From assembly GCA_002389665.1 (NCBI GenBank), contig DGNO01000002.1:764683-828682 (forward strand): a DNA stretch of 64,000 bases, given 5' to 3'. This document shows, piece by piece, positions 33,463-45,423 of the stretch (the first letter of the stretch is position 1; each line of letters begins with the position of its first letter). Both the position numbers and the translations under genes were made by a program. Source of the stretch: Rhodobiaceae bacterium UBA4490. GTDB taxonomy: Bacteria; Pseudomonadota; Alphaproteobacteria; Parvibaculales; Parvibaculaceae. The notes under the pieces are model-generated. The model was not told the origin of the DNA. It did not search any database and saw nothing but the letters and a program-made list of their open reading frames with translations.

Positions 33463-33750
33463 ATGAACCCGAAGACCTCTGCCCTGGCGCTTGCCGGTGC
33501 CGTTGCCGCCGCGCTGACGCTGTCGGCGAACACCTCCTTCGCCGCTGACGCAGCGGGCATGGAAAAGTGCTACGGCATTTCCCTCGCCGGCAAGAACGAC
33601 TGCGCCGCAGGCCCGGGCACGAGCTGCGCCGGCACGTCGAAAGTCGATTATCAGGGCGATGCCTGGAAGCTGGTTCCGGCCGGCACCTGCACCGACATCG
33701 AAACCCCGTTCGGCCCCGGCAGCCTTGAGCCTGTCGACCGCCCGGCTTAA
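33463..33750 (+). CDS. bufA1: Bufferin precursor BufA1 (DUF2282 family)
   Basis: 95 residues. Signal peptide (residues 1-28, [24 protein letters not shown]). The core has four cysteines, C36, C47, C55 and C76, in the pattern [17 protein letters not shown], and VPAGTC, which is the DUF2282/bufferin hallmark. In characterised bufferins, MNIO enzymes turn cysteines into thiooxazoles and the exported peptide binds copper. A clear TAGGAGAG ribosome-binding site precedes the ATG. First gene of buf operon; bufB follows 30 bases later. Confidence 0.92.
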
Positions 33751-33780
33751 TTGACGCCCGGACGCCGGAGCCTGTTGCCC

Positions 33781-34755
33781 ATGTCTTATCCCCCTCAGAC
33801 ATCCCCCCCAGCGGCAACCGTGCCCGATCTTTTGATCGGTGCGAAGAAAGCTCCGGCGTCCACCCCCGCTCCCGCCAAAATTCCCTCCGTCACCGGCGTG
33901 GGCCTGAAATCCGATCATTACCGCGACATTCTGGAAGCCGGCCCTGAGGACATGTCCGCCGCCGGCTGGTTTGAAATCCACGCGGAAAATTACATGGGCG
34001 AAGGCGGCGCGCCCCATGCCTATCTCAGCGCCATCCGCGAACGCTTTCCCCTGTCCATTCACGGTGTCGGATTATCGCTTGGTAGCAACGGCCCGCTCGA
34101 TGAAGCGCATCTGAAGCGGCTGAAGGGATTGGTGGAGCGATACCGGCCCGGCCTCATTTCCGAACATCTTGCCTGGTGCAGCGCCGGGGGAACGTTTTTC
34201 AACGATCTTTTTCCCGTGCCGCTTACCCATGAAACGCTCCGGAAAGTCGGCGATCACATCAATCAGACGCAGGATTATCTTTCCCGGCGCATCCTGATCG
34301 AAAATCCCTCGACATACCTCAAGACCGTCGACGATGAGATGAGCGAGCCGGAATTTCTGGAATTCCTGAGCGAGCGCACCGGCTGCGGCATCCTGCTCGA
34401 CCTCAATAATGTCGCCGTCTCCTGCGCCAACAAGGCCGAAAGCACGGCGGATTATCTTGCGCATTTCCCGGGTTCCGAAGTCGGCGAGATTCATCTGGCC
34501 GGTCACAGCATCGATACAGGCCATGATTGGGAGCTGCGTATCGACGATCACGGCAGCCGGGTCAGCGAAGAAGTCTGGGCACTGTTCCAGGCCTTTTGCG
34601 AGCGCTGGGGTCCCCGGCCCACCCTGATCGAATGGGATACGGACGTACCCGCCTTCCCCGTCCTTTTGGAAGAAGCAGGCAAAGCACGCGAGATCATGCA
34701 GAACGCGGCGGCCTTCGGCCCCCTCATGGGAAATTCCCATGCCGTCACTCGCTGA
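33781..34755 (+). CDS. bufB: Multinuclear iron oxidase BufB (DUF692/MNIO family)
   Basis: 324 residues, TIM-barrel MNIO family (MbnB and TglH relatives). Likely iron ligands: His94 in LSIHGVGLSLG, His129 in SEHLAW, Glu174 in ENPSTYL, Asp207 in LLDLNN, His238/His242 in EIHLAGH, and Glu284 in TLIEWD. An N-terminal Pro/Ala-rich extension of about 38 residues precedes the conserved GVGLKSDHYRDILE. It modifies BufA cysteines with the help of BufC. The open frame reaches a TTG at 33751, but ATG 33781 has an upstream GGAG. Confidence 0.93.
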   Translation: MSYPPQTSPPAATVPDLLIGAKKAPASTPAPAKIPSVTGVGLKSDHYRDILEAGPEDMSAAGWFEIHAENYMGEGGAPHAYLSAIRERFPLSIHGVGLSLGSNGPLDEAHLKRLKGLVERYRPGLISEHLAWCSAGGTFFNDLFPVPLTHETLRKVGDHINQTQDYLSRRILIENPSTYLKTVDDEMSEPEFLEFLSERTGCGILLDLNNVAVSCANKAESTADYLAHFPGSEVGEIHLAGHSIDTGHDWELRIDDHGSRVSEEVWALFQAFCERWGPRPTLIEWDTDVPAFPVLLEEAGKAREIMQNAAAFGPLMGNSHAVTR

Positions 34756-35569
34756 TTTTCAGCGCAATTTCGTGCGCGCCCTCCAGTCCTCTCCCAATCA
34801 TTCGCTACGCCGGCGCATGAGCGCGCCGGGCGGTGCGCCGCTGGAGCAGCGCTTCGCCGTTTACCGCAACAATGTCTATCACTCGCTGACCGAGGCCTTG
34901 AGCGCGGCCTTTCCCGTGATCCGCCGTCTGGTGGGCGATGAGTTTTTCAAGATAACGGCGCGCACCTTTCTCGACCGCGAAATGCCGGGCCGCCCGACAC
35001 TGATTGGCTATGGGGAGGGTTTCCCCGAATTTCTGGAAAGCTTCCCGCCCGCCCAGAACCTGGCATATCTCGGCGATGTGGCGCGGCTTGAGCTTACCTA
35101 TCTCAGCGCCTATCACGCCGCCGACGCCGAGGCGCTGAGCGGAGAAGCCTTTGCGCAAATCCCGCCCGAGGCGCTGGAGACGGCGCGGATCACGCTGCAT
35201 CCGGCGCTGCGCCTCATAACCTCGCCCTATCCTGTTTTCGACATCTGGCAAGCCAATCAGGACGGCGCGGCAGCGCCCGATAAACCCATCAAACTTGCCC
35301 ATGCCGGCCAATGCGGGCTCTGCGCCCGACCCACACTGTCCGTTATCCTGAGCATTTTGCCCGAAGGGGAATATGCTTTTTTCAGCGCGCTGAAAGAGAG
35401 AGCGCCGCTTGGCGAGGCGGCAGGAAGCGGCGCAGAGGTGGATCAAGATTTCGATCTTGCCGGCGCGCTTGCCCGCGCTTTTCAGCTCGGCCTTTTCGCC
35501 AAAATCGAAGGGCCCGGCATTCCTCTCTCCTCCCCCCAAGGACGCACCAAGGACCCAGCCAAGGACTAA
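34739..35569 (+). CDS. bufC: Bufferin maturation partner BufC (DUF2063)
   Basis: 276 residues. The N-terminal DUF2063 domain is clear ([76 protein letters not shown]). The rest would recruit the precursor to BufB. The gene overlaps bufB by 17 bases, so the two are coupled, as is normal for the BufB-BufC complex. Cys-rich spot [11 protein letters not shown] near residue 200. Confidence 0.9.
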
Positions 35570-35574
35570 AACCC

Positions 35575-36045
35575 ATGACCGACACACGCCTCACCCAAGC
35601 CCAGGGAAGCGGCCCCGCCGCTCTCGTCTCCAGCCTGATCGCCCTTGCAGAACGCGTCCCCGCCTCGGTTTACGCGCTTGCCATGCGCGCCGCGATCGCC
35701 TCCGTGTTCTTCCTCTCCGGCCGCACCAAGGTGGAAGGGTTTCTCACGCTGAAGTCGAGCACGTTTTATCTCTTCGAACATGAATATGCGCTGCCGGTGA
35801 TCTCTTCCTCGCTTGCCGCGCATCTAGCGACCTATGCCGAGCACCTCTTCCCAGCTCTGCTGGTGATCGGCCTTGCCAGCCGCTTTTCCGCCGCCGCGCT
35901 CCTTACCATGACGCTGGTCATTCAGATTTTCGTTTATCCGGGCGCCTGGTCCACGCACCTCCTCTGGGCCTCGATCCTGCTTTACCTCATCGCCCGCGGC
36001 CCCGGCGCACTCTCGCTCGATCATGCGATTGCCCGGCGCATGTGA
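35575..36045 (+). CDS. DoxX family membrane protein of the bufferin operon
   Basis: 156 residues with four membrane helices ([61 protein letters not shown]). The start at 35575 is five bases after the bufC stop. DoxX proteins are frequently the last gene in buf operons; their role in bufferin export or redox chemistry is unproven. Confidence 0.88.
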
Positions 36046-36169: not shown

Positions 36170-36841
36170 TCAGCTTCCACCCGCAAAGCGGGCTTTGAAC
36201 TCAATCTCCAAGATGCAACTTTGCGGCGAAAGTCCGCTGCCTTCCGCAGGCGCCGCATAATAATCCCCCTCCAGCGCCACATGAGCGCGCGCAGGTTCAG
36301 GATAAGGCGCGCGGTAAGCGGCGATATCGTTCGTGACGGCCGGCCTGATATCGATAGGCCACTGAACTGCGCTCTCATCGAGATAGTATCGCCCGCCAAG
36401 AGGCGTTTCATGCCAATGGGACGCGGGCGGCCGTTCGGCTTCGAAAGGATCGCTCATCCGGCCATAGGTCATTTCAAGCGCGGCAAGCACAGCGCTAAAG
36501 CCTTGCGCGCAGGCGGAAGGCGCCTTGCCGCCCGCCACATGCTTCAAACTGAGAACGCCAAGCCGCCCGCCCGGCGCGAAAATCGCCACCGGCTCGAACA
36601 TCCTGCCTGCTACCTCCGCCCGCTCATCGCTTAAAAGCCAGCAGCTCTTTTCCGGAAGCTGCGCCTTGCATTCCTTAACGCTTGCCGCCCTCCAGCTTAC
36701 GCCGGGAGAGGCGGCGAGCGTTTCTTCCAGTTCCATGCCAGGCGTAAGCCCCCGCCAACCGGGCCCCTCAGCCCGCACGCTGCCCGCCGCGCAGAACAGC
36801 GCCAGAACCGCCGCAAACGCACCTTTCGCAATCTCCTTCAT
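36170..36841 (-). CDS. Hypothetical secreted protein, paralogue of 42259-42858
   Basis: 223 residues with a signal peptide (GAFAAVLALFCAAGSVRA). The mature start GWRGLTPGMELEETLAASPGVSW and the end SGLSPQSCILEIEFKA recall the protein at 42259-42858, which reads GWDAYRFGMTLEEAAAVPGLSF and AQTCEITISYEG. Four cysteines (KECKAQ, KSCWLL, SACAQG, QSCILEIEF) may form disulfides. No catalytic motif visible; a periplasmic or surface role is likely. Its start overlaps the stop of the upstream membrane protein by four bases. Confidence 0.75.
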   Translation of the reverse strand: MKEIAKGAFAAVLALFCAAGSVRAEGPGWRGLTPGMELEETLAASPGVSWRAASVKECKAQLPEKSCWLLSDERAEVAGRMFEPVAIFAPGGRLGVLSLKHVAGGKAPSACAQGFSAVLAALEMTYGRMSDPFEAERPPASHWHETPLGGRYYLDESAVQWPIDIRPAVTNDIAAYRAPYPEPARAHVALEGDYYAAPAEGSGLSPQSCILEIEFKARFAGGS

Positions 36842-37290: not shown

Positions 37291-37311
37291 AACTAGTACA
37301 ATTGCCGTAAT
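37291..37311 (+). promoter_or_regulatory. Regulon motif copy 1 (upstream of the LuxR-type regulator)
   Basis: Sequence ACTAGTACAATTGCCGTAAT (37292-37311). It is 54 bases before the GTG start at 37366. It shares 16-18 of 21 positions with copies 2 and 3 and fewer with copy 4. Position in front of the regulator gene suggests autoregulation. Confidence 0.6.
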
Positions 37312-37365
37312 ATGAACGCGGCGCATTCGCTGGCAGATTTGGGGCAACGCAACCTGGAGAGTAAA

Positions 37366-37983
37366 GTGCGCAGCGGCCGCATCATTATTGCAGATGACCA
37401 TCCGGTGTTCCGGGATGGCTTGAGACGGATCGTGCAAAAAGCCTGTCCGTCGGCCGAGATCGTCGAGGCGGATACGTTCGAAGGCGTCGAGGAACTTGCC
37501 GAAGGGGGCGAGAGCGCGCCGGACACCTTCGTGCTCGATCTCTCCTTTCCCGGTTTCGAGCAGGCCGCCTCGATCAGCAAATTGCGCCGCGCCTATCAGC
37601 AATCCTCCATCATCATCGTTTCCATGAGCGATGATCCGGCAACGATCGAGACGGTCATGGCGGCAGGCGCCGACGGCTTTATCGGCAAGGCGGTGCTGCC
37701 CGGGGAAATCGGCGAGGCGATCAAAGCCATTCAGGAAGGCGAGATCATCGTCAAACGGGTTTCCGACGGCCCGGCGCAGCGCGAGGACCCGTTTGCCCAT
37801 TTGCCGCCCCGCCAGCTCGAAGTGCTGCGCTTCATCGCGCAAGGCAAGTCCAACAAGGAAATTGCCCGCGAGCTCGACATTTCTCCCTTTACGGTCAGGG
37901 TGCACGTCTCCGCGCTTTTGCGCGCGCTCAACGTCTCCTCCCGCGCAGCAGCGGCAGCCCTCGCTGCCGAAGCCGGGTACTAA
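37366..37983 (+). CDS. LuxR/NarL-family response regulator
   Basis: About 205 residues. GTG at 37366 has TGGAGA six bases before it, and the receiver domain begins right after ([19 protein letters not shown]). Phospho-acceptor Asp in FVLDLSFPG, and the conserved Lys in FIGKAVLPG. The C-terminal HTH reads [45 protein letters not shown]. An ATG at 37312 is in frame but overlaps the regulatory motif. Converges on the hybrid kinase with five bases between stops, so they form a cognate pair. Likely activator of the four-site regulon. Confidence 0.88.
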
Positions 37984-37988
37984 GCGCG

Positions 37989-39842
37989 CTACTGGGCGGC
38001 CGTGCGGCCTGCCTCCATCATCAGCTTTTGCGCCGTGATCGTGGAGCGCAGCTGCGCCGGGCGCACGGGTTTGGCAATCACCGGCACCGCGTCATCGCCA
38101 AGCTGCTTGCGCACTTCTTCCTCGCCATGGCCGGTGATGATGACGGCGGGAATATCCGCCCCTTCCAAAGCGCGGATATCTTTCAGGCACTGCGCCGCCG
38201 TATAATCGCCGCCAAGATCGAAATCCGTCACGATAAGATCGCAGCCGGTTCTCTCCTCCGGCAGGCGCGAGGCTTCCGAAACCACGCAGCCCCATTTTGC
38301 AAGCAGCATGGCGGTTGCCGCGAGCACGCTTTCATCATCATCGATCAGCAGGATATGAAGCCCCCGCAAAGGATGCGCCGGCAAAGCCGGGCCCTGGCGC
38401 GGCCCGGCGCCGCGCGCACCGGCCAGGGCGAGCCCGTCGATCATGACGCGTGTGCCCTGCCCGCGCACGGAGCGCACCTTCACCTCAAGGCCTTGTAGCG
38501 CGGCAAGGCGGCGGACGATGGAAAGCCCGAGCCCCAGCCCTTCCTGCGCCCGCTGGGCCGGCTCGTCGACGCGGTAGAACTCATCGAAAATCTTGGCGAC
38601 ATCCGCTTGAGGAATGCCGGGGCCCTGATCGCAGATTTCAACGCTCAAGCGGCCGCCCCGCCGCCGGCAGCCGATCAGCACCTTGCTGCCGGGCGCATAT
38701 TTGATCGCGTTGGAAACGATATTCTGCACCATCGTGGCGAGCAGCGCCGGGTCCACGCTGACCCAAAGATCGCAGGGCACACGGGTAAGGCGAATGCCTG
38801 CATGACCGGCAAGCTGCGCATTCTGCCGCGCCACATCTTCCAGAACCTCGCCGATCGCGACGGGCACGAGCTTCGCCTCCACCTTGCCGACATCAAGCGC
38901 GGCAATATCGAGCAGCGAACGGAAAAGCCCTGAAACACTGTGCAGCGAGCGGTCGATATTATCGACCATTTGCTGTTCTTCCGCGCCGAGCCCGGCATCG
39001 CGCAGGCAGGCGGTGAAAAGGCTGATCGCGTGAATGGGCTGGCGCAAATCATGGCTTGCCTGCGCCAGGAAACGGGATTTCGAGAGGTTCGCCTCTTCCG
39101 CATCCCGGCGCGCGAGATCAAGCTCGCGGGTGATTTCCGTCATCTCCACCAATTGCCTGTCAAGACGGCGGGTCAGTTCCACATTGGAAAGCAGAAAATC
39201 GTTCATCCGCACGGAAAGGATGGTCAGGATCAGCGCATAAAGAACGATGAGCGAGGCATTCACCGCGGAAGGCGGGAAATTGGCATGCATGAAATGCGCG
39301 CCCGCCAGAAGCGGAATGGAGGTCCACAGGCTGATGAAACAGGAGCGCAGCATCGCATGCTGGGAGGAGACGGCGCCGAGCGCCGTGCCGCCCAGCGCCA
39401 GCGTATAAATGAGCAGCACCTGAAAAGAGCCTTGCGCGGCGCCGAAGGCCCCACCGCCCCAGAACAGCCCGACCAGCGCCGTGAGCGCGCTATGGGCCCA
39501 GCCCGCTTTCAGCGCCAAGGGTAAAGGCACCGGCTGGCGGCTGACATAGACCCGGCAGAGCGCAGCAAGACTTGCGGAAAGCACCGCCATGCCCGCGCCC
39601 CAGAACAGCACCCAGGGCGCATAATCGAAACTATACGCCAGAAAGAAGCTTGTCAGCGCGATGACGCCCATATGCACGACCCAGCCCTGGAAGCCGAGAT
39701 CGAATAGATAATCGAGCTGCCATTTCTCGACCGAGGCAATGCGCCGGCGCGCCTCGCGCAGCCGGTCTTTCGTGCTTTGTGCGCTCACGTTCTCATCCCC
39801 AAAACGTGCCTCAAGTCTGCCTGCGGCAAGGCCGGGGCTCAA
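37989..39842 (-). CDS. Hybrid sensor histidine kinase with receiver domain
   Basis: 617 residues from the TTG at 39842; a GTG at 39788 with GGGGA upstream is an alternative. Six membrane helices occupy about 54-215. A short linker coiled coil leads to the dimerisation/phospho-acceptor domain (SKSRFLAQASHDLRQPIHAIS, His264), the ATPase lobe (NAIKYAPGSKVLI, DQGPGIP, GLGLGLSIVRRL) and a C-terminal receiver (LIDDDESVLAA at 499-510, Asp540 in IVTDFDLGG). The architecture resembles kinases that partner with LuxR-type regulators in alcohol- or quinoprotein-sensing circuits. The signal is unknown. Confidence 0.88.
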   Translation of the reverse strand: MSPGLAAGRLEARFGDENVSAQSTKDRLREARRRIASVEKWQLDYLFDLGFQGWVVHMGVIALTSFFLAYSFDYAPWVLFWGAGMAVLSASLAALCRVYVSRQPVPLPLALKAGWAHSALTALVGLFWGGGAFGAAQGSFQVLLIYTLALGGTALGAVSSQHAMLRSCFISLWTSIPLLAGAHFMHANFPPSAVNASLIVLYALILTILSVRMNDFLLSNVELTRRLDRQLVEMTEITRELDLARRDAEEANLSKSRFLAQASHDLRQPIHAISLFTACLRDAGLGAEEQQMVDNIDRSLHSVSGLFRSLLDIAALDVGKVEAKLVPVAIGEVLEDVARQNAQLAGHAGIRLTRVPCDLWVSVDPALLATMVQNIVSNAIKYAPGSKVLIGCRRRGGRLSVEICDQGPGIPQADVAKIFDEFYRVDEPAQRAQEGLGLGLSIVRRLAALQGLEVKVRSVRGQGTRVMIDGLALAGARGAGPRQGPALPAHPLRGLHILLIDDDESVLAATAMLLAKWGCVVSEASRLPEERTGCDLIVTDFDLGGDYTAAQCLKDIRALEGADIPAVIITGHGEEEVRKQLGDDAVPVIAKPVRPAQLRSTITAQKLMMEAGRTAAQ

Positions 39843-39889
39843 GAAACATTCGCCCGCATCGTTAAGGCGCGTTTGGCCTGCAGGCGCTG

Positions 39890-40393
39890 CTAGGGAGAAA
39901 GACAGGCTTTGAGATTGCCGATCGCCTCATCCGCGCCGTCGAGCGAGAAGCGCGCCGCCACGTCCCCGCGGTAAATCACCTGAAGCCGTTTCCCCTGCCG
40001 CATTTTTTCCACGTAAAAAACAGGCGGCATGGCGCTGCTGAGGCAGCCATGTTCGCCGCCGAAACATTCGAAGCTCTGATCGAAGAGCGCCTCATCCACC
40101 GCAAGCTGCATGAGAAGGGGGCCGGCAAGCTCCGGCGGCGCCTCGCTTTGCACGGGATCGGGGAAAAGCCCGAAAGCCGGCCCGCCGCCATTGCCACATT
40201 CCACCTCGAACCGCTGACCCGCATCGTTTTGCGTATAGGCGATACCTTCAAGGCCGGGGCGCGACTCATAGATCCAGGCGCCGCTCTCAACGATGCGCGC
40301 TTCTTCCGGCACGCAGGCAAAAAGCCCGCCGCTTGCCAGCACCAGGAAACCCCGCAAAACCGCCTTGCCCGTCACTCTCATCATCGCACCCAT
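39890..40393 (-). CDS. Putative lipoprotein or secreted protein, regulon member
   Basis: 167 residues. The signal sequence ends in GGLFACVPEE, a lipobox-like LFAC with Cys27. The mature part contains the paired cysteines ECFGGEHGCLSS and single ones in VECGNGG and NLKACLS. I do not recognise a family. Upstream motif copy 2 (40445-40465) is oriented towards it and lies 51 bases from the ATG. Several in-frame ATGs exist in the first five codons. Its stop lies 47 bases from the HK gene start (39842). Confidence 0.75.
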   Translation of the reverse strand: MGAMMRVTGKAVLRGFLVLASGGLFACVPEEARIVESGAWIYESRPGLEGIAYTQNDAGQRFEVECGNGGGPAFGLFPDPVQSEAPPELAGPLLMQLAVDEALFDQSFECFGGEHGCLSSAMPPVFYVEKMRQGKRLQVIYRGDVAARFSLDGADEAIGNLKACLSP

Positions 40394-40444
40394 CGCCGCA
40401 CCGGCCTTTCAGCGCAAGCTTGCCCGGGAGGACGCACAAAGGCG

Positions 40445-40465
40445 ATTACGCCAAATGTGCTAGTC
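40445..40465 (-). promoter_or_regulatory. Regulon motif copy 2
   Basis: Read on the minus strand: ACTAGCACATTTGGCGTAAT, 51 bases before the start at 40393. Matches copy 1 at 17 of 21 positions. Confidence 0.55.
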
Positions 40466-40560
40466 GTCCTGCAGCCGGCACCGGCTCAGCGCCATAGGAT
40501 AAAAAACACCTTCAAATCCGCCCGGACCGCCCACGAAAAACCCTACTTTTTGGCGGTTTT

Positions 40561-40594
40561 TTGCAGATGCTCCTTATTGATTTGCAGATGATCC
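40561..40594. promoter_or_regulatory. Direct repeat TTGCAGATG(C/A)TCC
   Basis: TTGCAGATGCTCC (40561-40573) and TTGCAGATGATCC (40582-40594) differ at one of 13 bases and are 21 bases apart, two turns of the helix. Lies in the 329-base intergenic region between the lipoprotein and the DUF4142 gene, about 130-160 bases before the latter. No protein-coding gene is seen in the rest of that region. Confidence 0.4.
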
Positions 40595-40722
40595 GGGAGC
40601 GCGCCCGCTCAATTGATTACTTCTCCCGCCCCGCCCAATCTCCTCCCCGTCGACGGATGCAGCAATCCCTTCAGGTCCTGCCGATCCGACAGACATGAAA
40701 CGAACCGGGAAAGGAACTCTCC

Positions 40723-41250
40723 GTGATTAACAAGAAAACCTGTGCGGCTGCCCTCGTGGCCTTCACCTTCTCCATGCCGGCTGTTGCCGAAGAGCCGATG
40801 AACGATCTGGAAATCGCACACACCGCCTATACGGCCGGTCAGATCGACATCCGCTATGCGCATCTGGCGCTGGCCCTCTCGCAGAACGAAGACGTGCGCG
40901 CCTTCGCCGCCACGATGGTCCGCGACCACACAGCTGTGAACGACGCTGCCGGCGCGCTCATCACCGAGCTCAACGTGACGCCCCAGGATAATGCCCTCAG
41001 CCAGGCGCTGGTGAAAGGTGCTGGCGAGAAAGTCGAAGAGCTGACCGGCCTGCGCGGCAAAGCCTTCGACTGTGCTTACGCAACGAACGAGCTCGGCTAC
41101 CACCAGGTCGTCAACCAGACCGTGGAAGGCAAGTTCATTCCGAACACCACCGTCGAGCCGCTCAAAGACCTGCTGACGGACGCGCTTGCCACGTTCAAAC
41201 AGCATGAAAAACATGCTGAAAACATGGTCAGCGGCCTGAAGTGCTCGTAA
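40723..41250 (+). CDS. DUF4142 family secreted protein
   Basis: 175 residues. Signal peptide (KKTCAAALVAFTFSMPAVA), then the four-helix DUF4142 domain: IDIRYAHLALALSQNEDVRAFAATMVRDHTAVNDAAGALITELNV, ferritin-like in pattern with H/E/D in helices. In homologues the domain has been called PF13628. Two cysteines near the ends (DCAYAT and LKCS). It overlaps the cupredoxin start by 10 bases. Translation follows GGAAAGGAACTCTCC. Probable periplasmic role in envelope or copper stress. Confidence 0.87.
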   Translation: MINKKTCAAALVAFTFSMPAVAEEPMNDLEIAHTAYTAGQIDIRYAHLALALSQNEDVRAFAATMVRDHTAVNDAAGALITELNVTPQDNALSQALVKGAGEKVEELTGLRGKAFDCAYATNELGYHQVVNQTVEGKFIPNTTVEPLKDLLTDALATFKQHEKHAENMVSGLKCS

Positions 41251-41597
41251 AGCGCACATATACCCGCAGGCAGGCCGGCGCCCTTCTGGGTGCCGGCTTC
41301 GCCGCGCTTTTCCTCTCCGGTGCCCCGCGCGCCGGCGAAGCGCCGCGCACCCACAAGATCGATATAAGGAAGTTCAAATTCGCGCCCGCCGCGCTGATCA
41401 TCAAAGCCGGCGACAGCGTGGAATGGACCAACCACGATATCGCCCCCCACACCGCCACCGATGAGGAAGGCGACTGGGACACAGGCACGCTCTCCCGCAG
41501 CCAAAGCGCCACCCTCACCTTCAAGACGCCCGGCACCTACAGCTATTTCTGCGCCTTCCACCCGCAAATGACGGCCACGCTTACCGTCGAGGCGTGA
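41241..41597 (+). CDS. Cupredoxin (plastocyanin/amicyanin-like, type 1 copper)
   Basis: 118 residues from a GTG inside the DUF4142 gene. N-terminal RRQAGALLGAGFAALFLSG is Tat-like. The copper site is seen as His in HDIAPHTATD, then Cys, His and Met in YSYFCAFHPQMTATLTV. It transfers electrons or holds copper in the periplasm. The overlap with DUF4142 implies coupled translation. The bufferin operon and a cupredoxin in one window fit a copper-handling theme, but no copper regulator is nearby. Confidence 0.88.
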   Translation: MLVKRTYTRRQAGALLGAGFAALFLSGAPRAGEAPRTHKIDIRKFKFAPAALIIKAGDSVEWTNHDIAPHTATDEEGDWDTGTLSRSQSATLTFKTPGTYSYFCAFHPQMTATLTVEA

Positions 41598-41618
41598 GAT
41601 TAGTGCATCTGTCTTAAT
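41598..41618 (+). promoter_or_regulatory. Regulon motif copy 4
   Basis: ATTAGTGCATCTGTCTTAAT (41599-41618), the most divergent copy, located directly after the cupredoxin stop and 54 bases before the ATG at 41673. It keeps the TAG, CA, TG, C and TAA positions shared by all copies. Confidence 0.45.
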
Positions 41619-41672
41619 TCCCTGACGTCTGAAAGCAGACCAAGCTGGCCTCTGAAACGATGAAAGAGGCAG

Positions 41673-42251
41673 ATGATGAGACGGATCCTTGCCCTTGCCG
41701 CGCTCCTTACAGCGCTCCCCTTAGCATTCAGCGCTGCCGAGGCCGCGAACCTTTCCGGCACCTATCTGATGTTCGGCGATCTGGACGGCAGATGCGCCAA
41801 TGAAAACTGGAACCGGCAGGGCTTTGCCCGCGCTTGCGCCGGCGTCAATCTGCGCGTCCAGCGTTCCGGTTCAGCCTGGGTGGGTAAGGTCGTTCACGCA
41901 CCGCCGCGCGGGCCAGCGGGCTATCAGAACCGCGGCATGGGCTGGATGGCCTTCAACGTGAGACCGAACATGTCCGGCCCCTCTTCATGCATGGCGGGGG
42001 GTCAGTCCGCCGCGCTGCTTTATGGCAGTGTCTTCGATCAGGTAAGCGGCGTGATGAAAGCGGGGTATATTCTCGCCGTGCCGCGCAGCACCACCTACGG
42101 TGCGGGCGCCGATATGGAGATCTATTTCCTGCCGGGTGTGAGCGACCCCGTTCTGCCGGGCGGTCAATGCAACAACCGCGCAACTTACGGCAAAGACCGC
42201 TTCACCAAACTGACACCGGATACGGGGCCGATGCCCTGGCACGGCAACTAG
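41673..42251 (+). CDS. Hypothetical secreted protein, regulon member
   Basis: 192 residues with signal peptide (LALAALLTALPLAFSAAEA). Mature domain begins NLSGTYLMFGDLDGRCANENWNRQGFARACAGVNLRV, with aromatic and glycine repeats and cysteines that could pair (RCANENW/ACAGV, SSCMAGG/GQCNNRA). I do not recognise a family. Its stop lies 8 bases from the convergent end of the 42259-42858 gene. Preceded by motif copy 4. Confidence 0.72.
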   Translation: MMRRILALAALLTALPLAFSAAEAANLSGTYLMFGDLDGRCANENWNRQGFARACAGVNLRVQRSGSAWVGKVVHAPPRGPAGYQNRGMGWMAFNVRPNMSGPSSCMAGGQSAALLYGSVFDQVSGVMKAGYILAVPRSTTYGAGADMEIYFLPGVSDPVLPGGQCNNRATYGKDRFTKLTPDTGPMPWHGN

Positions 42252-42258
42252 GACGACG

Positions 42259-42858
42259 TTAGAACTCGCGCCCGCCCGCTGCAGGTTTTTTGGCGGGCGG
42301 CTGGCCGCCTTCATAGGAAATAGTGATCTCACAAGTCTGCGCCTTGGTACCGGAGGGCTCCTCGCTCCATCCGGTATCGACGGCAAATTTCTTGAAACCG
42401 TTCTCCTTGCTCCACCATTGTATGAAGGCCGAATAGCGGGAGAAACGGTGTTCGGTGTCGCGGTGCTCATCGCGTTTCAGAGAACCGTAGCGCGTACCGA
42501 CCCGCTCCAGAATCTCACCATGTTTTTGCGCGCAGCGTGCCTCTGAAATATCCCCGCGCTGCCAGGACAGACGGATGGCGCTTAGCCAGCCTTCAGCGAA
42601 CTCTTCCCCCACCGTAAAATCGAGAAAGACCCGGAAGGGCGTCCCGCCCACCTCCACATCACTTGCCGAATGCAAGGTCTTTTGCGCCTCACCGCTCCCC
42701 GTCTCTTCCTCGAAAGAAAGGCCGGGCACGGCCGCCGCCTCTTCCAGCGTCATACCGAAGCGGTATGCGTCCCAGCCCGGAGGCGCCTCTTGCGCATGGG
42801 CAGGCACAGCCGCAAACACCAGGAGGGATACTGAGCAAAGCAATGAGCGCGATGTCAT
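42259..42858 (-). CDS. Hypothetical secreted protein, paralogue of 36170-36841
   Basis: 199 residues with signal peptide ending PAHAQEA. Mature start GWDAYRFGMTLEEAAAVPGLSFEE and the closing TCEITISYEG match the layout of the secreted protein at 36170-36841. Two cysteines are conserved in relative position (ARCAQKHGEILE and AQTCEITIS). It is the second gene of a unit with DUF4424 and starts nine bases after its stop. Pro/Lys-rich tail of 15 residues. Confidence 0.74.
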   Translation of the reverse strand: MTSRSLLCSVSLLVFAAVPAHAQEAPPGWDAYRFGMTLEEAAAVPGLSFEEETGSGEAQKTLHSASDVEVGGTPFRVFLDFTVGEEFAEGWLSAIRLSWQRGDISEARCAQKHGEILERVGTRYGSLKRDEHRDTEHRFSRYSAFIQWWSKENGFKKFAVDTGWSEEPSGTKAQTCEITISYEGGQPPAKKPAAGGREF

Positions 42859-42867
42859 GGCAGGTCC

Positions 42868-43881
42868 TCACTCCATTTCAAGATGCGGGGAATAGGTCAT
42901 GAAGATGATGTCCTCTTCCGGCGTAAAATTTTTGGCGGAAAACTCAAGACGCTGCGGGCCCGTCTGTTCAAGCGGATGCGGCCAGCAGCTGGCAAAAACG
43001 GCACCGGGCGCGCCAGTGTCGATGGTCAGATGAAAATGCCCGATAGGGCCGTTCCAGTTCGCCCCGCTCGTCAGCACATAGCCCACTTCGCGCGCAAAAT
43101 GAGAATAACGCTCCTCTTCGGGCAAAGCGGCGAGCGCCGTAAACTCTTCGTCGCCAACACAGTAGCGTTCGCGAAACCAGCTATCGAACGCATCGAGTTT
43201 TTCCGCTTCCTGCCAGTTGCGCATGAAGGAGAGCATGAAGGCCCCGGCAACGGGCTTGTAGCTGTGCCGCACTTCCACTTTCTCACCGGCGGGAAACACC
43301 GCCTCCCAGAGATAGGTGATACGTGTTTTCCATTTGCGGCTTTCGAAATTACCGAGAAGGCCGAGCTCGGCCATGCGCTCTTTTATGGGCGCCGTGCGCG
43401 CCTCATCCCCGTACCAGGTCGAGGGCTGCCAAAGATCGTCATAAGGCGCGAGCGGCCAGCCTTCTTCGCGGAAAAGCGCCGTAATATTCTCTCCCTCAAG
43501 GGAAATGATCTCCACGACTTCCCGCGCCTCGGTAGGCTTGCCGTCAAAGGTGGTGGTAAAATCGATAAACCGGACTTTTTCCGGCGCCGGCGGCCACTGC
43601 TCGCCAATGTCATCGGCAAATGTGTCGGGAAACGGAAAGGCGATAGTGAGCGCCGCATCCTCTTCCGTCACGTTTTCAAATTCATAGGCAACCTCGATAC
43701 GCGAGGGGGAAAGAAACAGATCCTCCCGCGCAAGGCGCACAGCCTCATTCTCCTCCAGCACGATACCGCCCGCCACGATACTGGCCGCGCTGTCATTGGC
43801 ACGCGCGGGGAAAGCCGCCATCCCGGTAAAGAGAACGGCAGTGACGAGAGAAAACCGCAGAAAGGCCGGACTGTTTTTCAT
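42868..43881 (-). CDS. DUF4424 family secreted protein
   Basis: 337 residues from MKNSPAFLRF, with AAAGGG-type ribosome-binding site before the ATG; the open frame extends 15 codons further. Signal peptide (FSLVTAVLFTGMAAFPARA). SIVAGGIVLEENEAVRLAREDLFLSPSRIEVAYEFENVTEEDAALTIAFPFPD is diagnostic of DUF4424. C-terminal block GNGPIGHFHLTIDTGAP and FSAKNFTPEEDIIFMTY. Exported; function unknown. Divergent from the amine oxidase, sharing a region with motif copy 3, which is oriented away from it. Confidence 0.85.
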   Translation of the reverse strand: MKNSPAFLRFSLVTAVLFTGMAAFPARANDSAASIVAGGIVLEENEAVRLAREDLFLSPSRIEVAYEFENVTEEDAALTIAFPFPDTFADDIGEQWPPAPEKVRFIDFTTTFDGKPTEAREVVEIISLEGENITALFREEGWPLAPYDDLWQPSTWYGDEARTAPIKERMAELGLLGNFESRKWKTRITYLWEAVFPAGEKVEVRHSYKPVAGAFMLSFMRNWQEAEKLDAFDSWFRERYCVGDEEFTALAALPEEERYSHFAREVGYVLTSGANWNGPIGHFHLTIDTGAPGAVFASCWPHPLEQTGPQRLEFSAKNFTPEEDIIFMTYSPHLEME

Positions 43882-43971
43882 GGATAGAACCCTTTCCGGC
43901 AAAGCTTCAATGGCGCCTGCCCGCATAACGGCCTTTTATCCATCAGCCTGACCGAGGCGGCAGCAGGGAAC

Positions 43972-43992
43972 AATTAGTACAGATGCCGTAAC
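43972..43992 (+). promoter_or_regulatory. Regulon motif copy 3
   Basis: ATTAGTACAGATGCCGTAAC (43973-43992), 66 bases before the ATG at 44059. It matches copy 1 at 17 of 21 positions. Lies in the divergent region between DUF4424 and the amine oxidase. Confidence 0.58.
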
Positions 43993-44058: not shown

Positions 44059-45423
44059 ATGAGCAGACCACCGGTATTCCGGAAAGAGCGGCGGCGGATA
44101 ATCGCCCAAATGAGCGCGGCCGGCCTTTTGGCGGCTGCCGGCAGCGGAGCGCGGGCAGCCTCTCGCCCTGCCGCGCCCATCCTCATCATAGGCGCAGGCC
44201 TCGCCGGCCTTGCCGCCGCAAGAGCGTTGAAGAACGCAGGACACGACGTGCTCATCCTCGAAGCACGCGGCAGAATCGGGGGCCGTCTTCATACCTCCCG
44301 CCTCTGGCCGGACATGCCCATGGATCTGGGCGCAAGCTGGATCCACGGGATACGCGGCAACCCGCTTAGCGCCCTCGCGCGCGCAGCAGGCGCAGCGCTG
44401 GCCGAAACGAGCTATGGCTCTTCTCTGCTGCTTGGACCGGACGGTGCCCCCTTCCGCGGCAACACCGGCAAAGCCGAAAAGATTCTGCGCCGCGCCCTTG
44501 AGGCAGCAAGCACGCGCAAGAGCGACATCTCCGCCGCACAGGCGCTTGAGGCCTCGCCCGGCTGGCGCGGCGCCTCGGCTGACGAGCGGCGCCTGATGCA
44601 GTACCTCGTCAACAGCACGCTCGAACATGAATATGGCGCGCCCGCACGGCAGCTTTCAGCCTGGTACGGCGATGAAGATGAAACATTCTCCGGACCGGAT
44701 GCGCTTCTGCCCGGCGGCTTTGACCGGCTTGCCGCATACCTCGCGCAAGGTCTCGACATCCGCTTTCAAAGCAAGGTGAGCGGCATCGCCCCCGGCCTTG
44801 TAACGCTTGCCGACGGCAGTGCGTTCAAGGCAAGCCGCATCATCTGCACCCTGCCGCTCGGCGTACTTGCCGGCGGCAATGTCCGGTTCGCCGAGCCGCT
44901 TGCGCCCGCGCGCCTGAAAGCGATAGAGGCGCTCGGCATGGGGCTCCTCAACAAATGCCTTCTCAGGTTCGAGAAGCCTCACTGGCCGGAAGGTCCCGAC
45001 TGGATCGGCTGGCTGGGCGAGACCCCAGGCCTTTGGGGAGAATGGGTCTCCCTCTCGCCAAGCCTCGGCATGCCGGTTCTCGTGGGCTTTAACGCAGGGG
45101 ATGAGGCGGAAGCTATCGAAAATCTGAGTGACCGCGACACGGTGGCCTCCGCGCATGCGGCTTTGAAAGCCATGTTCGGCACGCAGTTCCCCCCGCCAGG
45201 CAGCGCGCAAATAACCCGCTGGGGAAAAGACCCGTTCAGCCTCGGCAGCTACAGCTTCAATGCCGTCAGCACAAACGGCCAAACCCGCCGCGCCCTTTCC
45301 GGTGCAGACTGGGACGGCGGGCTCTGGTTCGCCGGGGAAGCAACTATGGCGGACTATTTCGGCACCGCCCACGGCGCTTTTCTCTCAGGCAAGCAGGTGG
45401 CCGAAGCCATTCTTTCCGGCTGA
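44059..45423 (+). CDS. Tat-exported flavin amine oxidase
   Basis: 454 residues. A twin-arginine-like signal [24 protein letters not shown] suggests folded export. FAD dinucleotide motif [44 protein letters not shown], substrate region [12 protein letters not shown], and C-terminal FAD contact [23 protein letters not shown]. Members oxidise polyamines, monoamines or lysine/tryptophan side groups. Member of the four-site regulon. Its stop lies 25 bases from the convergent PAP2 gene. Confidence 0.9.

Follow-up and report, generated by a model that had tools for sequence, protein, structure and literature searches.

The DNA analysed here, a stretch of 64,000 nucleotides from the alphaproteobacterium Rhodobiaceae bacterium UBA4490 (contig DGNO01000002.1, positions 764,683 to 828,682; hereafter the window), contains four 20-base operator-like sites close to the gene of a NarL/FixJ-type response regulator and its convergent membrane hybrid kinase (Table 1). 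Comparative sequence evidence makes it highly likely that this neighbouring regulator binds the sites and controls the genes behind them. It very probably controls itself as well, because sites of the same kind are found at held-out loci of the same regulator clade and a TGTACA-type operator goes with a different recognition helix. What is observed of the sites is their geometry, their confinement to the regulator's neighbourhood, their occurrence with the regulator clade and their joint change with the recognition helix.

Probable Operator Sites in the Window

The sites share the layout TAGYRCA-NN-TGNCKTA, an imperfect inverted repeat of two heptamers with a 2-base spacer (7-2-7, the NarL-type geometry), and all four have the same orientation, with the KTAA half proximal and the TAG half distal to the gene; only 10–12 of the 20 positions in each are self-complementary. 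A preliminary description of the window had reported a four-copy motif with twelve invariant positions, every copy facing a start codon 51–66 bases away. The motif is real, with 0 mismatches at each site, the twelve positions are confirmed by counting on the four sequences, and the distances hold; the places given for the copies also stand, whereas the 21-base spans were one base too long.

In the whole 3.45 Mb genome, AYTAGYRCANNTGNCKTAAY is matched exactly by these four sites alone, all inside 6.7 kb; when two mismatches are allowed across the whole genome, two extra places appear, and the backwards control pattern gives 8 matches at the same tolerance. Within the window, a search at up to 3 mismatches returns the four sites and nothing else, while in 100 dinucleotide shuffles the number of matches averages 0.68 and never exceeds 3. 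A matrix scan of the window ranks the four sites at the top (19.1–23.1), the fifth score being a background value of 8.4, and the highest score on 30 random sequences of the window's make-up is 13.1. Across 40 genomes of the family, YTAGYRCANNTGNNNTAR has 4 exact matches in the window's genome and 2 in the other 39; its backwards form, a commoner string, has 1 in the window's genome and 81 in all 40. The check proposed earlier, whether hits scatter at the same frequency, thus favours the motif as far as it was run, that is, by the window matrix scan and the genome-wide patterns. The regulon therefore looks local to the regulator's neighbourhood, as judged from the distribution of matches.

Table 1. 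Sites, regulator, kinase and proposed target genes in the window. Distances count the intervening bases from the end of a site to the start codon.
Feature	Position	Strand	Gene ahead or family	Support
Operator 1, ACTAGTACAATTGCCGTAAT	37292..37311	+	54 bases to regulator GTG 37366	exact match; matrix score 23.1
Operator 2, ACTAGCACATTTGGCGTAAT	40445..40464	-	51 bases to lipoprotein ATG 40393	exact match; matrix score 19.1
Operator 3, ATTAGTGCATCTGTCTTAAT	41599..41618	+	54 bases to secreted-protein ATG 41673	exact match; matrix score 22.8
Operator 4, ATTAGTACAGATGCCGTAAC	43973..43992	+	66 bases to amine oxidase ATG 44059	exact match; matrix score 21.4
NarL/FixJ-type response regulator, proposed operator-binding protein	37366..37983	+	Pfam Response_reg + GerE	aligned to NarL 1a04; D58
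Membrane hybrid histidine kinase (HisKA-HATPase-REC), convergent, proposed partner	37989..39788	-	Pfam	core nearest NF041832
Target 1, small lipoprotein	39890..40393	-	no Pfam or NCBIfam family	lipobox LFAC by eye
Target 2, small secreted protein	41673..42251	+	no Pfam or NCBIfam family	signal peptide by eye
Target 3, flavin amine oxidase	44059..45423	+	PF01593, E 7.2e-66	exported by N-terminus (by eye)

With one mismatch allowed, four more places turn up genome-wide and the backwards pattern matches 46 times; the four were rejected as further sites since they do not rise above that background. One of them, at G000:C4:645313-645330 (locus L134), is the nearly palindromic CTAGCACATATGTACGAA, which lies 80 bases before an AhpD-like gene (by eye) and also ahead of a divergent acetyltransferase-like gene; it is a possible fifth site, at background level.

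Operator and Regulator Clade in Other Genomes

In the following, loci are given by our L numbers, and the close clade of the regulator is taken at E <= 1e-38 or 1e-40. Sites of the same kind are present in 13 of the 21 closest named loci (L037–L057), many of them nearer to the perfect palindrome YTAGYRCANNTGYRCTAR. At up to 2 mismatches, this palindrome matches 16 times in the 327 kb of the 21 clade loci, where the reversed pattern matches 4 times, and once in the 808 kb of 59 loci whose regulators are more distant, where the reversed pattern matches 12 times; at 3 mismatches it no longer stands out between the two sets.

The 4 window sites, together with 17 sites from clade loci, served to build a symmetric matrix, and an operator was called at a score of 15 or more. 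Held-out plasmid loci, for which 10 of 22 matching records were taken, contain 18 such sites in 9 of the 10, and the reversed-sequence control contains none (3 at 13 or more); L152 duplicates a training locus at 99.4% identity, and without it the plasmid count is 8 of 9. Ten further stretches were reduced to six by setting aside four near copies of known loci (L168–L171), and a site is present in L164, L166, L172 and L173 and absent from L165 and L167, with one reversed control match, in L167. In total, an operator is present at 12 of 15 held-out same-clade loci, whereas only 4 of the 59 loci from outside the clade have one (Fisher p 3e-8); at a score of 16 or more the counts are 10 of 15 and 4 of 59 (p 3e-6), and at 18 or more 9 of 15 and 2 of 59. 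On the regulator tree, the operator occurs in 33 of 48 clade rows (near copies included) versus 1 of 20 other rows. The site lies 44–61 bases before the regulator gene itself in L037, L045, L047, L144, L146 and L148.

A Second Operator Type and the Recognition Helix

Seven Parvibaculum-like regulators are without a TAG-type site, and each is preceded by CTGTACA-NN-TGTACAT instead. This pattern occurs 7 times in the 40 family genomes, every time at one of these regulator genes, while a control pattern occurs 0 times. In all seven loci (L118–L123, L126) it lies between the regulator and a divergent gene of 1017–2032 codons, which starts 68–116 bases from the site; the regulator start is 62–67 bases away in the five loci where a start was picked. 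The six divergent genes that were scanned (L126 was left out) are all of autotransporter type, with a beta-domain in five and passenger repeats above cut-off in five: the gene of L118 has repeats only, and that of L120 has a beta-domain and repeats below cut-off.

The recognition helix is SPVTARMHVSALL in all seven regulators with CTGTACA-NN-TGTACAT, and three other regulators of the family (L117, L124, L125) have neither this helix nor this operator. Meanwhile, SPFTVR opens the helix in 21 of 26 clade rows with a TAG-type site, the exceptions being L041, L044, L057, L145 and L172. The helix of L055 is SPLTARMHVSALM, and the best site ahead of its regulator is ACAAATGCACCTGTACAAAT; helices of more distant regulators are mostly EITVKLHVTAIL-like or EGTVKLHVTAIL-like. 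As the compared sequences indicate, operator and recognition helix change together in the Parvibaculum-like relatives. The earlier proposal of control by the neighbouring regulator, with autoregulation, is strengthened by this joint change, by the held-out orthologous loci and by the fact that in many species an operator precedes the regulator's own gene.

Regulator and Kinase

The regulator shows the features of the NarL/FixJ group, with PF00072 and PF00196 above cut-off and D58 aligned with the VLDL/LLDL of NarL, and its best PDB match is NarL 1a04; as a protein family it is ordinary. The start at GTG 37366 is our choice (GGAGAG precedes it and relatives start near the same point), and the longest frame begins at ATG 37312, directly at operator 1. 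The protein is not a NarL/NarP orthologue, scoring 118 and 122 bits against NCBIfam equivalog cut-offs of 250 or 343, and it is not ErdR/MctR (NF041830, NF052445), for which it would need 390 and 300 bits and reaches 99 and 100.

The kinase stays below the 400-bit cut-off of NF041832 (NahK/ErcS), with 307 bits in the window and 251–304 in six relatives. Its N-terminal 200 residues match no Pfam family and have one chance-level PDB match (E 0.6); the N-termini of some relatives may be like that of the sensor kinase RpfC. A kinase homologue is found near the regulator in 18 of the 21 clade loci L037–L057 (13 convergent, 4 on the same strand, 1 divergent) and was not found near it in L042, L053 and L054, and in all ten family stretches it is convergent with the regulator. 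From this recurring adjacency we infer that regulator and kinase form a pair, which is also the ground for the kinase as part of the controller, as first suggested for the window.

Proposed Mechanism and Alternative Explanations

In the mechanism that we propose, the convergent membrane hybrid kinase would sense an envelope signal and phosphorylate the regulator on D58. A regulator dimer would then occupy the 20-base palindrome, with one recognition helix on each TAGYRCA heptamer and two bases between them, an arrangement that matches the geometry seen in the sites. Transcription would most likely be activated from just upstream of the −35 region, because the sites end 51–66 bases before the start codons. 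Besides its own gene, through which positive feedback would arise, the regulator would control a few neighbouring genes for exported proteins, and the same kinase–regulator–operator module would be kept, with its exported cargo exchanged, across Alphaproteobacteria and a few Beta- and Gammaproteobacteria.

If the regulator binds and controls, it is considerably more probable that it activates than that it represses. Repression, with the exported proteins silenced until the signal arrives, is a variant within the same proposal and is rather unlikely. In its favour, NarL represses at frdA from a 7-2-7 site near the start site (PMC4549865). On the other hand, the 51–66 bases to the start codon are enough for a promoter to lie on the downstream side of the site, and the NarL sources give upstream 7-2-7 sites as activating at yeaR, napF and ogt. 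It is improbable that the sites belong to another transcription factor, or are promoter elements of an alternative sigma factor, and that the regulator is nearby by coincidence. The asymmetry of the window sites, with the same half facing the gene in all of them, would suit such an element, and binding by the regulator is a prediction; nevertheless, the matrix tracks the regulator clade across species on held-out loci, many sites of relatives are nearly full palindromes, and the recognition helix changes together with the operator. The least probable explanation, and a very improbable one, is that the four sites are recent duplicates of one promoter segment. They do all lie within 6.7 kb, yet the 80-base flanks are at about chance identity between sites (17–27 positions upstream, 19–26 downstream) against 14–17 of 20 in the core, so the sites are not copies of one duplicated segment, and the genes downstream are of different kinds.

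Several observations weigh against control of these genes by the neighbouring regulator. No clear common −10 box is seen by eye downstream of the four window sites. The scores of three held-out sites, two of them in L164 and the third in L172, are low (15.0–15.5), and L146 and L150 are not fully independent, because they have 2.6 kb in common at 75% identity. The available DNA of 15 of the 48 clade rows has no operator, and six of these rows (L015, L042, L043, L049, L165, L167) have the usual SPFTVR helix. Their loci are mostly 13–20 kb long (16–20 kb for L042, L043, L165 and L167), so shortness of the DNA is not the whole cause, and a longer stretch for L015 (L124) reaches a best score of only 14.2. 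Similarly, the regulator of G004 (L117), 60% identical and with the helix SPYTVRSHVSALL, has no site at 15 or more, the best scoring 9.0. The operator-less SPFTVR regulators in mostly long loci therefore indicate that some clade regulators act elsewhere or on unlike sites.

Proposed Target Genes in the Window

The small lipoprotein is an orphan, a search of 5.8 billion proteins returning its own cluster only (100% identical), and the small secreted protein is a near-orphan with two clusters, at 97% and 49% identity. Structure models of the two have a mean predicted local distance difference test score (pLDDT) of 39.6 and 49.3, respectively, and because these values are low the models were not used for a fold search. 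The PDB relatives of the amine oxidase are LSD1/LSD2 and polyamine or spermine oxidases. The motif had been said to define a regulon of exported proteins; this fits the three non-regulatory targets here and most assignable targets elsewhere, with signal peptides judged by eye or by a hydrophobicity rule. For the amine oxidase, export by the twin-arginine translocation (Tat) route had been claimed: export agrees with the N-terminus (by eye), and the assignment to Tat comes from a KERRRIIAQ stretch picked out by eye only.

The DUF4142–cupredoxin pair between sites 2 and 3 (40723-41597) is without a site of its own. Just upstream of the regulator locus, at 33463-36045 (+), are genes for DUF2282, a DUF692 enzyme of MbnB/TglH/ChrH type, DUF2063 and DoxX, also without an operator site, and this is the make-up of copper-binding "bufferin" peptide operons. 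In addition, neither of the proteins at 36170-36841 (-) and 42259-42858 (-) matches a Pfam family; both have a signal-like N-terminus and, by eye, a similar stretch (GLTPGMELEETLA and YRFGMTLEEAAA), and they possibly form one unnamed family.

Predicted Cargo at Other Loci

At the other loci, starts and signal peptides were picked by simple rules, and the target assignments are therefore leads rather than annotations. Unassigned or ambiguous sites are left out of the target list, including L148 5513, both of L149, L147 9428, three of L051, two of L153, L050 7616, L052 7533, L164 and L166. Autotransporters follow the site in L047, L052 and L145 (in L145 the annotated start is 394 bases from the site, and that of a longer frame 132), lipoproteins in L039, L040, L050 and L148, and small secreted proteins in L037, L044, L045 and L147; L045 also has a signal-bearing ankyrin-repeat protein, and L057 a secreted protein of 1075 residues. 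It can be seen that the regulator–kinase–operator module appears to be kept while the predicted cargo differs between loci.

Peptides with a double-glycine (GG) leader follow the site in L144, L146, L150 and L173. They lie at L144 2729, 9949, 10627 and 10831, L146 9417 and 9785, L150 10862 and L173 10654. C39-ABC/HlyD exporter genes accompany them in L144, L146 and L173, the HlyD and C39-ABC pair of L173 following about 90 bases after the site, and the peptides beside the regulator are candidate microcin-like peptides. With a first GG-leader pattern, which missed real-looking leaders, 41 clade loci gave 8 frames, and no site lies near any of them. A loose pattern found 68 frames in 31 clade loci, 4 of them within 300 bases of a site, which is not far above chance placing (about 2 by a rough estimate), and 205 frames in 59 distant loci, none near a site. 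A strict pattern found 9 frames in 37 clade loci, 6 of them within 600 bases of a site, compared with 3 frames in 59 distant loci and 4 in ten family stretches, where none is near a site. The six strict frames near a site belong to just two loci, L144 and L146, chance seems to account for the remaining three (L051, L166, L167), and the L150 and L173 peptides come from looser patterns, so the peptide link rests on few loci. No strict GG-leader frame was found in the window, and the Pfam scan, which covered 17 of the window's proteins, showed no C39-ABC/HlyD exporter among them.

Two candidate targets were rejected. The OmpA-DUF4892 proteins of L051 and L057 have, respectively, no site directly ahead and a site that scores only 11.6, and in L173 about 360 bases separate the site from the start of the pilus-like operon, whose family matches are below Pfam cut-offs. 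A small membrane protein, alike by eye, recurs near the regulator in three species (L051 5745-6257, L153 7939, L165 6981) and lies behind a site in two of them. Beside the Nitratireductor regulator locus, L037 11737-16391 holds what by eye is a Cas9-Cas1-Cas2-like set.

Distribution

Because few candidates were scored per genome in the large samples, the counts are lower bounds. Across the class, at least 5 of 385 genomes, counting that of the window, carry the close regulator clade, as do at least 7 of 298 genomes of one family, at least 1 of 5 of another and at least 11 of 40 of the window's own family, and the other genome of the window's genus has no close-clade regulator at the clade threshold. 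Plasmids with relatives of the regulator number 22 records at E <= 1e-30, and relatives are also found in Pseudomonas, Castellaniella and Enterobacter. The regulator–kinase pair thus recurs but is rare and patchy, and this patchiness suggests horizontal spread of the module.

Relation to Known Systems and Meaning of the Module

The nearest known counterpart in geometry is NarX/NarL of Escherichia coli. It has been reported that the NarL dimer binds inverted heptamers 2 bases apart (7-2-7), with TACCCCT-AA-AGGGGTA as an engineered site (PMC4549865). Activation by NarL is also reported at yeaR, where it comes from one upstream 7-2-7 site, and at ogt, where the sites lie at −44.5 and −77.5 (PMC7419079). 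By analogy, such activation from upstream sites fits the spacing here. The two systems are alike in regulator family, in inverted heptamers with a 2-base spacer, in the outer TA of both halves and in sites upstream of promoters. They differ in the heptamer (TACCCCT for NarL, TAGYRCA here), in the kinase, which in the window is a hybrid of another class, and in the targets, which here are exported proteins and not nitrate respiration; the NarL/NarP models also score far below cut-off.

In Pseudomonas, the cluster with the hybrid kinase NahK/ErcS also encodes a LuxR-type regulator (PMC12997753), and the window resembles this arrangement with AgmR/ErbR (PedR1) in having a LuxR-type regulator in the cluster and a HisKA-HATPase-REC core nearest NF041832. 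It differs in the sub-cut-off score of the kinase and in its unrelated-looking membrane N-terminus, and none of the eight annotated plasmid stretches holds a gene named for pyrroloquinoline quinone (PQQ) or alcohol oxidation. Regulators of ErdR/MctR type share the overall architecture and detectable similarity, whereas the window regulator is far below their cut-offs. Double-glycine (class II microcin-like) export systems are matched in L144, L146 and L173, which hold exporters of C39-peptidase ABC and HlyD type with GG-leader peptides behind the same operator; the difference is that the link is through the regulator family in few loci and not through the window locus. Among open-licence papers, judged by listings and the beginnings of abstracts, none was found to describe the operator, its regulon or the regulator–kinase pair.

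We tentatively suggest, as a reading that falls a little short of even chances, that this is an undescribed and horizontally spread hybrid-kinase/NarL-type module with an operator code of its own (TAGYRCA-NN-TGYRCTA, and CTGTACA-NN-TGTACAT in the Parvibaculum-like relatives), which would serve as a general switch for a fast-changing exported payload. In this case the payload would range from giant autotransporters and lipoproteins to orphan secreted proteins and would also include double-glycine (microcin-like) peptides together with their exporter, and a payload of such kinds would plausibly make it a switch for contact with, or competition against, neighbouring cells. The operator code makes an unnamed regulator family predictable, so that in genomes with this family candidate targets, including unannotated secreted proteins and double-glycine peptides, can be named from sequence alone. 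In addition, the module provides a natural example, within the NarL family, of a recognition helix and its operator changing jointly, and it draws attention to exported proteins that are lineage-specific, have no known function and would be deployed together.

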